In this document: piece after piece, positions 1,346 to 8,281 of the stretch
Position numbering within the stretch: position 1 is the stretch's first letter
Layout of the letters: each line of letters begins with the position of its first letter
Source of the DNA: Chloroflexi bacterium RBG_13_46_14
Lineage (GTDB): Bacteria; Chloroflexota; Dehalococcoidia; Dehalococcoidales; UBA2162
DNA length: 9,318 bases
NCBI GenBank assembly: GCA_001796415.1
Contig: MGML01000145.1
Location: 1 to 9,318, forward strand
Direction: 5' to 3'
Notes under the pieces: generated by a model
The model's database searches: none
Told to the model about the DNA's origin: nothing
What the model saw: only the letters and a program-made list of their open reading frames with translations
Position numbers and translations under genes: made by a program

Positions 1346-2299
1346 ATGAAGAAGTTGATTACTACAGGAATACTGCTGATACTTTCAGCGGCTTTACTGC
1401 TGCCGGTGGCAGGATGTGGAGAGGAGACTAACGGGCTTGAACAGCCTGAAGAAACAGAACCGGTTGCTTCGGAATCAAACCGCTGGGTGGAGCTTCTCAA
1501 TGTCATTCCGGAGAATGATACAACGGTCAACGCGGTGTATATGCAAGACATTGCTTATCTTCACGAACGACAGACAGAATTTCCCGATGCGGAACCATAC
1601 GCGGTGATGAGGCTTTCGATGACCGGTAGTTCAGGTCTTTTCCGGCATTACTTCGATATGACCGACCCGGAAGCTGACGTCCCGGGAGAATACAGGGAGA
1701 CTATCGGTTTTACGCTGGAGGAGGTTGGGCAGATGATTACTTCCGGCATCCAACCGTATATCTACGAAGCCTACCGGGGAAATTTCGATGAAAAGGTTAT
1801 CGATAACGCGGTAAAGACCGGTCCCCGCAGTGATGAGCTTGAGATCATAGAATACGGTGATATGGAGTATTACCGCTGGGGCGAGGATAACGCGGCAAAC
1901 CTGAACGAGCGCACCCACGTCCGCCCTCTCGGCAAAGGACACCGCCTGGCATTGCCGGGTGATTTCGCGTTCTGGGTAACCTGGGATGAAGGGATCGAAA
2001 CCATGATCGACTGCTATAACGATACGGTCGGTTCTCTGGCTGATATCGATGAGTACAAGCTCATGGCGGAAGGGCTGAGTATACTGGATGCTTTCAGCGG
2101 ATACATGACGACCGATACGAATTCGTACGACGAAGTGAAGGATTACCTGGAGAGAGAGAGGAACTGCCCGAACGGGAAGGACATGATGAACGCTTTGAAC
2201 TGTATCTGGAGGACGTATCCCTGCTTAAACCATACACAGCCCTGGCGACAGGAGCGGGGCTTGACTCAGATGGCTACTACCTTGCAATCGTACTGGTAA
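1346..2299 (+). CDS. Lipoprotein of unknown family, copy A; reading frame shifted at a GA repeat
   Basis: ATG 1346 follows AGAAGGAG with 7 nt spacing. The product starts 'MKKLITTGILLILSAALLLP' and has lipobox VAGC with Cys24, then an acidic linker. It is a clear paralog of the gene at 2566. Over 91 residues beginning 'NAVKTGP' I count about 45 identities by hand, including KTGP (157-160), WGED (178-181), 'GHRLA', 'MID.Y' and 'SLAD'. I do not recognise the family. The similarity stops at about residue 270, where the frame runs through (GA)5. The remaining 47 or so residues ('NCPNGKDMMNALNC...QSYW') have unusual Cys content and no match to the paralog. The expected C-terminus continues in another frame to 2541. 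Removing one GA unit restores a 397-residue protein, against 398 in the paralog. As written, the gene makes a truncated 317-residue product with an aberrant tail. Confidence 0.85.
   Translation: MKKLITTGILLILSAALLLPVAGCGEETNGLEQPEETEPVASESNRWVELLNVIPENDTTVNAVYMQDIAYLHERQTEFPDAEPYAVMRLSMTGSSGLFRHYFDMTDPEADVPGEYRETIGFTLEEVGQMITSGIQPYIYEAYRGNFDEKVIDNAVKTGPRSDELEIIEYGDMEYYRWGEDNAANLNERTHVRPLGKGHRLALPGDFAFWVTWDEGIETMIDCYNDTVGSLADIDEYKLMAEGLSILDAFSGYMTTDTNSYDEVKDYLERERNCPNGKDMMNALNCIWRTYPCLNHTQPWRQERGLTQMATTLQSYW
1397..1428 (+). repeat. 32-bp perfect direct repeat, copy 1 (signal-peptide end of the duplicated lipoproteins)
   Basis: The 32 bases encoding the end of the signal peptide, the lipobox and 'GEE' are identical to 2617-2648. 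They lie inside a wider tandem duplication whose start codons are 1220 nt apart. Recombination between the two would delete one paralog. Confidence 0.85.
2150..2159 (+). repeat. (GA)5 dinucleotide tract at the frameshift point of copy A
   Basis: Five GA units sit where the coding frame changes. Loss of one unit gives '...DYLEREELPEREGHDERF...', which joins the upstream frame to the conserved downstream frame. Dinucleotide tracts are known slippage sites for polymerases, although five units is short for classic phase variation. Confidence 0.8.
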
Positions 2300-2541
2300 A
2301 TCCAGACAGCAACACCGCTGAAGAGAATGCTTCTATACTTGAGGAGCGAATCGAAAATACCATGGACATCTGGCAGGGAAGGCTGTGGTCTGAAATGGCG
2401 ACCGGCGTAACGGTAGAAAGCCGGGACAGACTGACCCTGGCGAAACTCTACGGGCCTCCCAGCGAGTTCTGGCCCGACCGGTTCGGAAGCCTTGGTGTTG
2501 TGGGAACAGGTGCGTTCGAACCTTTGCTTGTTCATGAATAA
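2161..2541 (+). pseudogene. Out-of-frame C-terminal part of lipoprotein copy A
   Basis: This stretch reads as 126 residues ending in TAA at 2539-2541, but one frame away from the start of its gene. It contains 'LLKPYTALATGAG', 'NPDSNTAEENASILEERIE', 'LTLAKLYG' and a terminal 'LLVHE'. These match 'LLKPFSSFVTGAG', 'NPDEKTAEDNVSLLEARIN', 'FTIAKLYS' and 'LLLHE' in the neighbouring paralog, in the same order and at similar spacing. It has no signal peptide and no start codon with a plausible ribosome site, so it is not a gene of its own. No further stop or frame break occurs in it, which suggests that the lesion at 2150-2161 is recent, reversible or an artefact. Confidence 0.85.
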
Positions 2542-2565: not shown

Positions 2566-3762
2566 ATGAAGAAGATGATTAAAACAGGGATAATACTGAT
2601 GCTCTCAATGGCCCTGCTGCTGCCGGTGGCAGGATGTGGAGAGGAGACCCAAGGACTTGAACAGTCCGAAGAAACGGAAGATGCTTCTACGGAACCAAAC
2701 CGCTGGCTGAAGTATTTGCGGATCCTTCCGGAGAATGAAACCACTCTTGCAGGGGCATGTATCCAGACAAGTGATTACACCGATATCCTTCAAGGTTACT
2801 ATGCCGAACAACCAGAAGAACCGATTCTGCCCGTCGAACAACTTGCCTTCAACAATTTACAGCTTTTCAATAACCGGTCTTACACCGATGAAGAGTGGAA
2901 AAACACACTGGGTTTTACCATTGACGATGTAACGGCAACAATAATTGCCACTGCCGGCCCGCCTTCAGAATACCAGGCCATATACGGGACCTTCACCGCC
3001 GAAGATATCGAGACTGCGGCGAAAACCGGCCCTTTGCAGGAACATCTTGAAATAAAATCGCACGCCGGGTTTGAATACTATAGCTGGGGAGAAGACAGAG
3101 CCATACATATGGACTGGCGGAGCAACATACGCAATCTTGGCAGAGGACACCGGCTTGCTTACGTGGACGGGTTCGCCCTCTGGATGATCTGGACGGAAGG
3201 TGTCGAAAGCATGATAGACGCCTATGCGGGCAATGTACCTTCCCTTGCCGATAAGGAAGATTACCAGCTTCTTGCCGCCGAACTTGAAAAAACAGGCGTG
3301 GTAACAGCTTTTTTCTCCTCTGAAGTACTGAGTTTAACAGAGTTTATTGAACGCACTCGCGAACACTTAACGGATGTGGAAGGATCTGCATTCGAAGAGC
3401 AGAACCCGTTAGGAAACGAACCGTTGCTGAAACCATTTTCCTCTTTCGTCACCGGAGCCGGTGAAGATGAGAACGGAAGGTATATGGTAATCATCCTGCT
3501 GAATCCGGACGAGAAAACCGCTGAAGATAATGTTTCACTACTTGAAGCTAGAATCAATGAATCGGAAATGTTCCCGCACACGACGAATCCTGATATGAGA
3601 AATATCAAATGGACGGATGACGATGCGATTGAATCGATTGAGATTACCAGCCGGGGACGTTTTACGATAGCGAAGCTGTATAGTGAAGTAATTTACAGAT
3701 GGAAGTATTTCCACTACTGGGGAACTATAGGCCCGTACGTCCCGTTATTGCTGCATGAATAG
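2566..3762 (+). CDS. Lipoprotein of unknown family, copy B (intact paralog)
   Basis: The 398-residue product begins 'MKKMIKTGIILMLSMALLLP', with lipobox VAGC and Cys24 followed by an acidic linker 'GEETQGLEQSEETEDAS'. Conserved with copy A are a 'P.N.T' segment after 'NRW', 'GFT(I/L)DDV', 'KTGP', 'EYY.WGED.A', 'LGRGHRLA', 'W.EGVESMID.Y', 'SLAD', 'LLKP', 'NPDEKTAEDN', 'AKLY' and the final 'LLLHE'. The order is the same throughout, which defines a small family made of an N-terminal alpha/beta-looking region and a C-terminal module. I do not recognise it and assign no function. The stop is TAG at 3760-3762, 15 nt before the next start. The next gene lies in the same reading frame, so this TAG alone separates the two proteins. 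The gene sits 24 nt after the end of copy A and probably shares its transcript. Confidence 0.88.
   Translation: MKKMIKTGIILMLSMALLLPVAGCGEETQGLEQSEETEDASTEPNRWLKYLRILPENETTLAGACIQTSDYTDILQGYYAEQPEEPILPVEQLAFNNLQLFNNRSYTDEEWKNTLGFTIDDVTATIIATAGPPSEYQAIYGTFTAEDIETAAKTGPLQEHLEIKSHAGFEYYSWGEDRAIHMDWRSNIRNLGRGHRLAYVDGFALWMIWTEGVESMIDAYAGNVPSLADKEDYQLLAAELEKTGVVTAFFSSEVLSLTEFIERTREHLTDVEGSAFEEQNPLGNEPLLKPFSSFVTGAGEDENGRYMVIILLNPDEKTAEDNVSLLEARINESEMFPHTTNPDMRNIKWTDDDAIESIEITSRGRFTIAKLYSEVIYRWKYFHYWGTIGPYVPLLLHE
2617..2648 (+). repeat. 32-bp perfect direct repeat, copy 2
   Basis: Identical to 1397-1428. The rest of the two genes has diverged to about half amino-acid identity, so this perfect stretch is either constrained or has been homogenised by gene conversion. 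Confidence 0.85.
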
Positions 3763-3777: not shown

Positions 3778-4668
3778 ATGATGAAGAAACTGGCAAGGTG
3801 CATCATTACCTTACTGATTTTTACGGTCGTAATTCCGATATTGTCTTCCTGCGATAATAAGAATGCACCACCGGAAGAAACCGACTCCACTGACGATGAG
3901 ATTACACGGGAAATCAGGGAGATCGGTGAGAATATCCATTATTCCTCGCAATGTATCTGGGGAGACTTGTTTGTCGGGATTAAATACGTATATAGCCAGG
4001 GGCTTGACGAACAAAATATTATCATCTTCAATCTGGAAACGGGGGGAAAAGAACTCCTGCTGGAATTCGATCCGCTGTCTTACCGAGTTGATCCACCGGC
4101 GGTTGAAGGCAATCTCCTCGTCTGGTCTCAGGCTGATGTAAGCGGCAAACAGCCCGATGAAATAAGGCTGGACACTCTCAACTATGATATCTTCGTGTAT
4201 GATATGGATACCGGTGAAACAAGGCAGATTACCGACGACGAATACGTGCAAAGGGGAGCGCTGGTCTCCGGCGAATGGGTAATCTGGCTGGACAGCCGCC
4301 ACGGTACAGGAGAACGTTATCCTTATCCCCCTCCTTTTGATGTCTACGCTTATGACCTTAATACCGGGAAAGAGAAAAGACTAACTTCAGCCACCTCCGC
4401 CGAGGGTTATGACCATCTGGCAATCAGCGATAACCTGGTAGTCTGGAGCGATAACCGCTTCGGTGATCCGGAGGTGAAAAGCCGCCCCGGCAATGTAGCC
4501 GACTACAACAATGAAATTTACGCTTACAATCTCAAGACAGGAGAAGAATATCGGATTACAAACTATGAAGGTAACGACCATTATCCGGCGATTCACGGGA
4601 ACCGTATCGCCTGGCTGAGGCAGATAGACCTGAGAAAAGCGGATATCATGGTCTATGATCTTGAATAG
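3778..4668 (+). CDS. TolB-like beta-propeller lipoprotein, ended early by an in-frame TAG
   Basis: The product has signal peptide 'KKLARCIITLLIFTVVIP' and lipobox LSSC with Cys25 (counting from 3778). It then carries propeller blades of the form 'I..YD..TGE...IT......P.I....V.W.D.R'. Four linker/strand motifs can be lined up: 'YDMDTGETRQIT', 'YDLNTGKEKRLT', 'YNLKTGEEYRIT' and 'YDLE*DEETRVS', where * is the TAG at 4666-4668. An earlier, weaker blade contains 'IFNLETGGKELL'. The stop therefore falls inside a blade, at a position that is Thr in the other three. The protein as written has 296 residues and an unclosed propeller; with readthrough it would have 407. TolB-like propellers are known protein-binding modules, and some relatives have enzymatic partners, but no catalytic domain is present here. 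A surface binding role is inferred. Confidence 0.88.
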   Translation: MMKKLARCIITLLIFTVVIPILSSCDNKNAPPEETDSTDDEITREIREIGENIHYSSQCIWGDLFVGIKYVYSQGLDEQNIIIFNLETGGKELLLEFDPLSYRVDPPAVEGNLLVWSQADVSGKQPDEIRLDTLNYDIFVYDMDTGETRQITDDEYVQRGALVSGEWVIWLDSRHGTGERYPYPPPFDVYAYDLNTGKEKRLTSATSAEGYDHLAISDNLVVWSDNRFGDPEVKSRPGNVADYNNEIYAYNLKTGEEYRITNYEGNDHYPAIHGNRIAWLRQIDLRKADIMVYDLE

Positions 4669-5001
4669 GATGAAGAAACCAGGGTGTCAAGTAGCGGTTA
4701 TGCGGCTTATACTCCTGCTATCTATGAAGACCTTGTAGTCTGGACGGACGCACGGTCCAGCAAGGGTAATATCACCAACGACGTTATTGAAAACGGCGTC
4801 CCGGGAGGAGCTGATATTTTCGGGTATGATTTCACCTCCGACGAAGAATCGCTGCTTATTCCCTCCGAGATCGAAAGGGAATCCGAAGAAAGGACTCTTC
4901 GCCGGGTACTGATGTTTCCAGTGATATCTGAGGACTATCTGGTTTACACCTGGGGGCGGCAGATAAGACCCATCGTATATGTAGAAAACATACAGAGGTA
5001 A
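4669..5001 (+). pseudogene. Detached C-terminal blades of the TolB-like propeller
   Basis: Directly after the TAG the same frame continues for 110 residues to TAA 4999-5001. It holds 'DEETRVSSSGYAAYTPAIYEDLVVWTDARSS' in two pieces that complete the interrupted blade. A further blade, 'IFGYDFTSDEESLLIP...VISEDYLVYTW', follows, and then a short tail. There is no signal peptide. A GTG at 4684 has only AGG immediately adjacent and would start mid-blade, so independent translation is unlikely. The intact frame and good blade pattern show that the region was recently, or still is, part of one protein with 3778-4668. Confidence 0.82.
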
Positions 5002-5005
5002 GTTA

Positions 5006-6172
5006 ATGAGAAAATTCGTTGTTACCCTGATAACCGCTATCGTTGTATTTCCGGTACTCTCATGCGCGCCGGAAAACGACCTGCCTTCACAACTAAACGA
5101 ACCTGAGTCTCATTCCGTTGAATCATTTTCTGTCGGCGAACCGGTCCTGGACCTGTTGTATACCGATGGCAAGATCTGGGCCGGTACATCAGGGGGAGTA
5201 TTTCGGTGTGATCCTAAGACGGGAGAGACGCAACAATACACAGAAGATGATGGCCTGGGCAACAACACGGTCAGAAAGATAACGAAAGATTGTAACGGTA
5301 ACATCTGGGTTACCTGCTATATAGACGGTGTATGCAAATTTGATGGAATAGAATGGCAGCATTTTACGGTTGAAGACGGACTGATAAGTGACGATGTAAT
5401 TACCCTGGCTGCTGATAGCCATGGCGGCGTCTGGGTCTCCGCGTATTGGGGTGTCAGTTACTATGACGGGGCAGAATGGAAATCATTTACCAGTCTGGAC
5501 CCCGATGCTATGGTGGTTGGCGGTGAAAACCCGAATAATCCTGATGCCGTACTGCTGGAAGGCGTAGATCTGGGTGCCGCTGATGTTATCTTTATCGACA
5601 GCAGGGGTATGGTCTGGTTCAGCAACCGGCATGACGGCGTGACACGTTTCGACGGTGAAAACTGGACGCTCTTTTCTTCTGAAACCGGAATGGAAGCACG
5701 CGGTGTCAGCGCTATTACTGAAGATAAAGATGGTAATCTCTGGTTTGGCAGCATGACGGGGATTACGTGCTATGACGGTTCTCAATTTACACTCCAAACC
5801 GTTGAACAATACCAGTCTATTATACCGCGTCCATATGTCCAGGATATCAAGGAAGATACTAAAGGTACTATCTGGGTTGCTGCTTACGGGGGCGGCGTCA
5901 GTCATTATGATGGAACAGACTGGCAGGTCTACACTCGCGCGGAAGGTCTGCCGGGTGAAAACGGTCGTTTTATCTTTTTCGATCCTGAAGGCAATCCGGG
6001 AGTAGTAACCGCTGAAGGCGTTGGCTTCCTGAAGGAAACAGTCTGGAAACTTCTGACCGAGGATGATGGTATTCCGGACGGTAAGATCAGGTCTGTTACT
6101 ACTGATGACACAGGTTCAGTGTGGTTCGGCAGCGAGACAGGTGAGATCAGTCAGATGAATCGGGTGCCGTGA
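5006..6172 (+). CDS. Reg_prop-type seven-bladed beta-propeller lipoprotein
   Basis: ATG 5006 follows AGAGG at 4994-4998, which overlaps the upstream stop region. The 388-residue product starts 'MRKFVVTLITAIVVFPVLSC' with the lipobox cysteine at residue 20. It contains eight copies of the motif '(D/E)..G.(I/V)W......GV..(Y/F)DG..W..(Y/F)T...GL', as in 'CNGNIWVTCYIDGVCKFDG' and 'DTKGTIWVAAYGGGVSHYDG'. The last copy probably closes a seven-bladed ring. About 28 residues are inserted after the third motif ('LDPDAMVVGGENPNNP...'), and the seventh motif is degenerate, lacking its Trp. This is the two-component regulator propeller repeat, known as the periplasmic sensor part of hybrid histidine kinases. 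Here no kinase, transmembrane or response-regulator domain follows, so it is a stand-alone lipid-anchored propeller whose ligand or partner is unknown. Confidence 0.92.
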   Translation: MRKFVVTLITAIVVFPVLSCAPENDLPSQLNEPESHSVESFSVGEPVLDLLYTDGKIWAGTSGGVFRCDPKTGETQQYTEDDGLGNNTVRKITKDCNGNIWVTCYIDGVCKFDGIEWQHFTVEDGLISDDVITLAADSHGGVWVSAYWGVSYYDGAEWKSFTSLDPDAMVVGGENPNNPDAVLLEGVDLGAADVIFIDSRGMVWFSNRHDGVTRFDGENWTLFSSETGMEARGVSAITEDKDGNLWFGSMTGITCYDGSQFTLQTVEQYQSIIPRPYVQDIKEDTKGTIWVAAYGGGVSHYDGTDWQVYTRAEGLPGENGRFIFFDPEGNPGVVTAEGVGFLKETVWKLLTEDDGIPDGKIRSVTTDDTGSVWFGSETGEISQMNRVP

Positions 6173-6209
6173 TAAGCTGTACAGTCTTGAATGATAAAGG
6201 AGTCTGTTG

Positions 6210-7004
6210 ATGAGTAAGGTATGGCTTGTATTGATAATGGCCATGGTAATACTTATGAGTTTCCTGCCGTGTATAACTGGTTGCAATGACCAGGACGCAG
6301 TTGAAGAAGCGCCGGTATCCGAATCATCCGGGAAGCAGCTTCCTGAAATTACTAACCTTGAGCTTGCTCAGCCTTATAAAATCATTGGTGAAAGAAGCCT
6401 GGCGATTGAAGAAGGTTATGACAGAAGCGTCGGACGCTGGCTGATAACCTCTGAAACGGCCGCCGGTTTCGAGGAGCGCGCCCAGACGGTAGTGAAGTCA
6501 GTAATCGATCTTTATACTCTCTACAAGAGGGATTTTACATCGGTAACGCTAATCGCCAGGGATGATCTGGAAAGGCTTGATTATGCCTCGGCAAGTTTTG
6601 CCGCTGACGGACTTGGGCCGGAAGGTATGACCGGCTCCGCCCCGGCACAGCATTCTTACTGGAAAGTGCGTGCCACCGATTACATGTACAGCGAAACCGA
6701 ACTGGAAATAGCCAGGTTGTGGTGGGAGAATATCGACCGCTTTCCGCAGACCGATTTACTCAGCAGTTGCAGTTATGATGAAGAGGCACTCAGGCAATAT
6801 GTTGCTGATACTCTCGGAATTTCTTACGAAGATGTGAGTTATGGCAAAGCGAAAGAAATAAGAGAGTATGATGTGGAGACGCTTCTCGGTGATTGGACTG
6901 TACAAGCTGCGGAATATCGTACGGCTACGGCAGAACCTGACGTTATTGTTGAACCGAAACCCGGTCATCGCCTTGGTAACGCCACCCTAACGCAACGGAG
7001 GTGA
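6210..7004 (+). CDS. Lipoprotein of unknown function (possibly DUF4875-like)
   Basis: ATG 6210 follows AAAGGAG at 6196-6202 with 7 nt spacing; a TTG one codon upstream is less likely. The 264-residue product has signal peptide 'MSKVWLVLIMAMVILMSFLP' and lipobox ITGC with Cys25. Residues about 50-125 ('YKIIGERSLAIEEGYDRSVGRWLITSE...ERAQTVVKSVIDLYTLYKRDFTSVTLIARDD') look like the small alpha/beta domain that compares a rate or exponent-like 'R..I...T' strand with a helix and an 'F..V.L' strand; this recalls DUF4875, but I cannot confirm it. The second half contains 'SCSYDEEALRQYVADTLGISYEDV', a helical segment, and ends 'GHRLGNATLTQRR'. It ends 1 nt before the next start, whose ribosome site lies inside its last codons. 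That spacing suggests translational coupling. Confidence 0.85.
   Translation: MSKVWLVLIMAMVILMSFLPCITGCNDQDAVEEAPVSESSGKQLPEITNLELAQPYKIIGERSLAIEEGYDRSVGRWLITSETAAGFEERAQTVVKSVIDLYTLYKRDFTSVTLIARDDLERLDYASASFAADGLGPEGMTGSAPAQHSYWKVRATDYMYSETELEIARLWWENIDRFPQTDLLSSCSYDEEALRQYVADTLGISYEDVSYGKAKEIREYDVETLLGDWTVQAAEYRTATAEPDVIVEPKPGHRLGNATLTQRR
6997..7004 (+). promoter_or_regulatory. Strong ribosome binding site overlapping the upstream stop
   Basis: GGAGGTGA matches the anti-Shine-Dalgarno sequence well and includes the TGA of the preceding gene. The next ATG is 1 nt away from its end, so spacing from the GGAGG core is about 4 nt, on the short side. Confidence 0.65.
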
Positions 7005-8173: not shown

Positions 8174-8281
8174 ATGAGAAGAACCGGATTATTAGTGTTA
8201 CTCATGGCATCAGTACTGTTTTTCCCGGGTTGTGACGATACGAAAATAACCTCGACGCCGGAAATCGACTGGTCGATATAA
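8174..8281 (+). CDS. Very short lipoprotein-like ORF (35 aa), possible gene remnant
   Basis: ATG 8174 opens 36 codons ending in TAA at 8279-8281. The peptide 'MRRTGLLVLLMASVLFFPGC' is a complete lipoprotein signal, with two Arg, a hydrophobic core and a PGC lipobox at Cys20. Only 15 residues follow ('DDTKITSTPEIDWSI'). The ribosome site is weak (CTGGA shortly before the start). It lies in the 191-nt gap between 8136 and 8328, the widest gap in the cluster. No homologous sequence continues in any frame after the stop. It could be a real tiny lipoprotein, comparable in size to lysis or entericidin-type lipoproteins, or the stub of a longer lipoprotein whose body was deleted. The stub reading fits a region with two other broken genes. 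The rest of the gap shows nothing I can support. Confidence 0.5.
   Translation: MRRTGLLVLLMASVLFFPGCDDTKITSTPEIDWSI

Follow-up and report, generated by a model that had tools for sequence, protein, structure and literature searches.

Frameshift pseudogenes produced by slippage in short repeats are found in bacterial genomes generally. Changes in the length of dinucleotide tracts have also been connected with switching, and in the Mycoplasma mod gene an AG tract of 12 or 10 units within the coding gene has been proposed to act in this way (PMC3498834). The tract length taken as a starting point differs among studies. A Campylobacter survey uses a cut-off of 6 or more units for dinucleotide tracts (PMC6321876), while a Haemophilus study listed such tracts from 5 units (PMC2651432). 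In the four Haemophilus genomes of the latter, all dinucleotide loci (8/8) had 5 units, and 7/8 were invariant in overall length (PMC2651432). Assembly errors are in addition a known source of apparent pseudogenes (PMC11017572). The GA tract described here, at which a predicted lipoprotein gene leaves the reading frame of its family, has five units and does not reach the cut-off of the Campylobacter survey (PMC6321876).

Results

Gene order of the window

The window, i.e., the whole stretch of 9318 bases that was analysed and probably a whole metagenomic contig, carries a series of successive + strand genes, and the majority of them have lipoprotein signals by our own reading of the sequence. 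Besides more small genes, the following features were found:

313-1320, + strand, leucine-rich-repeat (LRR) lipoprotein, 5' of copy A, TTG start inferred
1346-2299, + strand, copy A in its ATG frame, lipoprotein of 317 aa, lipobox LLPVAGC read from the sequence
2150-2160, + strand, GA tract (GA)5G, where the family frame is left
2158-2541, + strand, family-like C-terminal piece of copy A, read in the other frame, with 127 codons before the TAA at 2539-2541
2566-3762, + strand, copy B, intact paralog, lipoprotein of 398 aa
3778-4668, + strand, N-terminal part of a beta-propeller lipoprotein, up to and including TAG 4666-4668
4669-5001, + strand, remainder of the beta-propeller gene in the unchanged frame
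5006-6172, + strand, two-component-propeller protein
6207-7004, + strand, DUF4875 protein

A scan of the window for promoters and terminators gave counts no different from shuffle expectation, and the tandem repeat finder reported no repeats. The very short ORF at 8174-8281, with a lipoprotein-like signal (FFPGC) and a stop about 15 residues past the Cys, may be what is left of a further lipoprotein gene. One relative (P0046, 635 aa) combines the lipoprotein family with an LRR domain in a single protein. This fusion, together with the LRR lipoprotein gene immediately upstream of copy A, suggests a functional link between the LRR protein and the family of copies A and B.

The change of frame in copy A

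The ATG frame of copy A extends from 1346 to a stop at 2297-2299 and encodes 317 aa, the last ~45 residues, past the tract, being out of frame. The C-terminal piece (2158-2538) has no internal stop and, as read in the window, contains the peptide LTLAKLYGPPSEFWPDR. Identity to copy B was 39% for the N piece (271 columns, E 4e-67) and 36% for the C piece (136 columns, E 7e-21), and the C piece reached up to 93% identity to A-type relatives. Both pieces are homologous to uninterrupted relatives and lie in different frames, the pattern by which frameshift pseudogenes are recognised.

The switch point was located by scoring both frames column by column against eight relatives with equal spacing. 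The N frame scored +4.0 per column before the switch and -1.6 after it, and the C frame -2.1 and +4.4, respectively. The switch could be placed anywhere in 2150-2163. All switch points at which the N-frame codon ended between 2149 and 2161 shared the best score, and the next one listed beyond this range scored lower; the frame offset in the profile scan was 2 nt. The tract (GAGAGAGAGAG at 2150-2160) begins at codon 269, about two-thirds into a gene that has ~398 codons in relatives. The sequence-only reading had placed the departure from the family frame at the GA tract, and the scan agrees. It had also described a conserved, stop-free C-terminal piece in another frame, which was recovered here, with 127 codons in place of the 126 claimed.

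From the CTG of DYL to the CTG of LPEREG there are 14 nt in the window and 12 nt in L001, a locus of the Dehalococcoidia isolate W403 and the only close relative compared by DNA. L001 is in frame and has AAAAGAGAGG, i.e., (AG)3, at the site. The DYL-LPEREG linker consists of four residues in eight of the 14 full-length A-type proteins and is longer in the other six (6/14), so the site varies in length in whole codons. With the L001 spacing 2 nt shorter and four residues in 8/14 proteins, a net gain of two bases in the window, as first proposed, holds as the simplest description.

The tract is the sole dinucleotide run of at least five units in the window and lies just where the frame switches. 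Under a first-order Markov model of the window, 0.09 such tracts are expected, and at least one occurred in 9% of 300 simulations. Comparison with related sequences, which had been put forward as a check, did not find the tract kept: alternating Glu/Arg/Glu was present at the site in none of the 14 full-length A-type relatives (protein level), and the DNA of L001 has (AG)3 instead. Copy B is also without such a GA tract.

Relatives of copy A and identity of the family

Searching with copy A gave 20 proteins, including the window's own (P0064), and thus 19 others. Fourteen are full-length A-type relatives of 390-409 aa with a single frame through the site; this set omits P0064, the shorter P0077, P0078, P0079 and P0080, and the B-type P0009. 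Since it contains full-length rows only, calling its members intact is partly circular, and for this reason the count among all 19 is also given: P0078 and P0079, which are shorter A-type proteins, likewise cross the site in one frame, bringing the number to 16 of 19, while P0077 and P0080 stop before the site and P0009 is of B-type. P0078 and P0079 carry the C-terminal core by a motif test that was strict and missed many full-length members.

The named relatives belong to Dehalococcoidales and other Chloroflexota MAGs, from which the taxonomic placement of the window was taken, and the closest listed relative of copy B is P0002 (84% identity). In the genome searches, 8 of 156 genomes contained nine matches and 5 of 393 contained seven, some genomes being common to both sets; most matches were distant, and none had stops within the matched part. 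The scan of genome contigs with copy B alone found no relative, and the contig scan with the A-type alignment found one locus.

Copy A belongs to the family by homology over both of its pieces and by its lipobox, read from the sequence. Neither Pfam nor NCBIfam gave a convincing match to the family, which could be described. Among 70 members (alignment A2, which omits P0020, P0022, P0029, P0046, P0061, P0064 and P0077-P0080), Pfam returned 12 families, each in one or two of the 70 and with a best E of 0.0026; DUF3352 was found in one. The profile search of PDB gave no match at E 0.1 or better, and PHROGs gave a single match (E 0.099). A phage or viral origin was considered and rejected, as copy B had no match in phage records (tblastn) and the A-type alignment had no relative in viral contigs.

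Constraint on the C-terminal piece

The mean ratio of C-piece to N-piece divergence was 0.85 for the window (range 0.31-1.26) and 1.11 for 91 pairs of relatives (range 0.35-3.99). In six of the 14 relatives, similarity was 9 to 17 points higher for the C piece than for the N piece (e.g., 92% vs. 75% for P0067 and 93% vs. 77% for P0070), and in the other eight it was 1 to 10 points lower. Compared with L001, dN/dS was 0.116/2.70 for the C piece, the dS of which is near saturation, and 0.172/1.06 for the N piece. The claim that the C-terminal piece is still under family constraint is borne out by this absence of excess divergence against the 14 relatives. No decay following the change, in the form of extra stops or excess C-piece divergence, was found in copy A, which leaves a change that is recent, reversible or else not real. 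As constraint was not found to be relaxed, copy A, if the change is real, is a fresh frameshift and not a demonstrated old pseudogene, and the data fit a very recent event only.

The interrupted beta-propeller gene

Two genes 3' of copy A, the beta-propeller gene (3778-5001) contains an in-frame TAG at 4666-4668, which the sequence-only finding on copy A does not mention. The position is occupied by Ser in five and by Thr in one of the six full-length relatives aligned; the alignment comprised these six and three short proteins out of 38 listed, P0082 and P0083 being near-identical. Past the TAG the frame is unchanged, and among the six full-length relatives the piece is 73-76% identical to five and 43% identical to the sixth, P0090. 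TIGR04275 scored above its cut-off in the relative P0082. Two cluster genes are thus interrupted by different types of change, a frameshift in copy A and a stop codon in the propeller gene. The latter is compatible with a paralogous cluster that is undergoing turnover, or with poor assembly.

P0081, a protein from an ENA contig, is 100% identical to the propeller product over its first 238 residues and then continues into unrelated sequence. At this level of identity the base calls in the matched part agree between the two deposits. The match ends before the TAG and so neither confirms nor denies it; P0081 reaches neither the TAG nor the GA tract, and it may come from the same sample as the window. 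Among the other propeller relatives, P0117 consists of the second half only. The end of P0098 looks, in our reading of its letters, like an out-of-frame local repeat, and P0098 is possibly another frameshifted copy in the group.

Variation among the cluster genes

ACFLXY has one A-type, two B-type and one propeller protein (tags 00515, 00520, 00530 and 00535). Copy A itself is modestly mosaic: it is closest to P0074 in alignment columns 120-180 and to members of the P0065/P0067/P0070/P0071 type past column 180. A recombination joint as the origin of the frameshift was rejected, because the change of partner lies near column 180 and the tract near column 276. P0069 resembles P0066 in its first part and P0072 in its last part and could be an assembly chimera. 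In L005 (G042; genome, order of W403), a family member is represented by its second half alone, directly after a frame that is sulfatase-like by our own reading of the sequence; L005 may be a copy that has lost its 5' part, or the contig may be chimeric. Between A (1360-1479) and B, DNA identity is 77-80% at the signal-peptide ends and 40-70% in later 60-base blocks, a difference suggestive of gene conversion or of a leader under stronger constraint.

The family proteins listed in the searches with copies A and B, excluding the window's own, have at least 360 aa in 71 of 78 cases and are shorter in the other seven. Three of the short ones, P0029, P0061 and P0077, have 259-272 aa and terminate within or close to the linker in which copy A changes frame. 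One of them is on a contig of 1562 bases, and the other two have no contig listed; their ends may be contig ends, and natural short forms are also possible. If such forms are real, the truncated product of copy A need not be dead.

The dispensability of A-type members was assessed on five contigs of more than 25 kb with B relatives of at least 65% (P0004, P0005, P0008, P0010 and P0011). An A-type protein is listed for three of the five; sharing of a contig was deduced from equal listed size, with neighbouring locus tags as further evidence in two pairs. For the two relatives whose contigs have no A-type protein listed, a database gap could be the reason.

Discussion

On balance, the results favour a recent slippage frameshift that, in a Dehalococcoidales-like genome, truncated a paralog which is probably dispensable, and we hold this explanation to be probable, with no great confidence. 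Copies A and B are paralogs lying next to each other and belong to an uncharacterised family of lipoproteins in uncultured Dehalococcoidales and other Chloroflexota. The linker in front of the C-terminal part contains the GA tract, which would have grown by two bases, most likely by replication slippage, and this gain would throw translation out of frame. The resulting 317-aa product, deprived of the conserved last third, would be non-functional or altered, and this would be tolerated since copy B remains. Copy A would then be nothing more unusual than a newly formed pseudogene or a truncation allele, in a cluster whose members are duplicated, recombined and lost over time. The possible turnover is indicated by the set of members in ACFLXY, the mosaic nature of copy A, the second disabled gene nearby and the half gene of L005. 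We infer that the change is real and recent. On the other hand, the two disrupted genes within a contig of 9.3 kb also fit poor assembly, and short forms are uncommon in the family (7/78 with less than 360 aa).

The main rival explanation, which we regard as a good deal less probable though it deserves serious attention, is a sequencing or assembly error in the metagenomic contig, an option that the sequence-only reading had named alongside recent breakage, in which case the real gene would be in frame and would encode a full-length lipoprotein. It would agree with the conserved, stop-free C piece, with the intact state of all 16 A-type relatives crossing the site and with the presence of a second disruption (TAG 4666-4668) on the same contig. 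That second disruption, however, is a stop codon in an unshifted frame and not an indel, so one type of error does not explain both. The 100% match of P0081 over 238 residues also argues against error, although it falls short of both TAG and tract and is maybe from the same sample.

It is unlikely that copy A is a contingency locus in which slipped-strand mispairing at the GA tract reversibly switches the gene between full-length and truncated forms, as the sequence-only reading had suggested it could be. What speaks for it is that tract and change of frame coincide, the tract being the window's sole dinucleotide run of at least five units, that the gene encodes a predicted lipoprotein and that its C piece is kept intact. 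The tract, however, is short (five units plus one base), lies far from the 5' end (codon 269 of ~398), is not kept in relatives (0/14; (AG)3 in L001) and has no counterpart in copy B, and all 16 of the A-type relatives crossing the site are in frame. The more specific proposal of a young contingency locus, in which the five-unit tract would switch the predicted lipoprotein between full and short forms with paralog B as the constant partner, must be regarded as quite unlikely. If it were true, P0029, P0061 and P0077 would hint at a use for short forms. If reads were mixed in tract length, the gene would represent a phase-variable gene of the SSR type in a group for which none is among the literature matches listed.

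Programmed ribosomal frameshifting, by which a -1 shift would reach the C frame and yield both full-length and short products, is hardly credible: the C frame is indeed -1 relative to the N frame and open back to the stop at 2050, which leaves a wide overlap of frames, but no X XXY YYZ heptamer (the only motif type tested) lies in frame within the overlap 2050-2299, all three in the ATG frame (1681, 1777 and 1780) precede the stop at 2050, and the relatives use a single frame.

For the favoured recent slippage frameshift, a recently broken copy matters little beyond annotation, where copy A should carry a frameshift flag and the propeller gene should be marked as interrupted.

Among the nearest sequences, JW712_04965/04970, JW762_01830 and ACFLXY_00515/00520/00530 are uncharacterised Dehalococcoidales/Chloroflexota lipoproteins of the same family by sequence. 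As in the window, A- and B-type members are close together by locus tag in JW712 and ACFLXY; unlike copy A of the window, the A-type members of both are full length (398 aa each). The Mycoplasma mycoides mod gene (AG12/AG10; PMC3498834) and the dinucleotide loci of Campylobacter (PMC6321876) are systems in which the length of a dinucleotide tract in the coding sequence sets the frame, as it does here. Compared with these, the tract of copy A differs in having only five units, in lying late in the gene and in being unkept in relatives. With slippage pseudogenes, copy A has in common a single small change of tract length, with the rest of the gene conserved. It likewise has intact relatives and an intact paralog, and there is no notable difference from pseudogenes of this kind.
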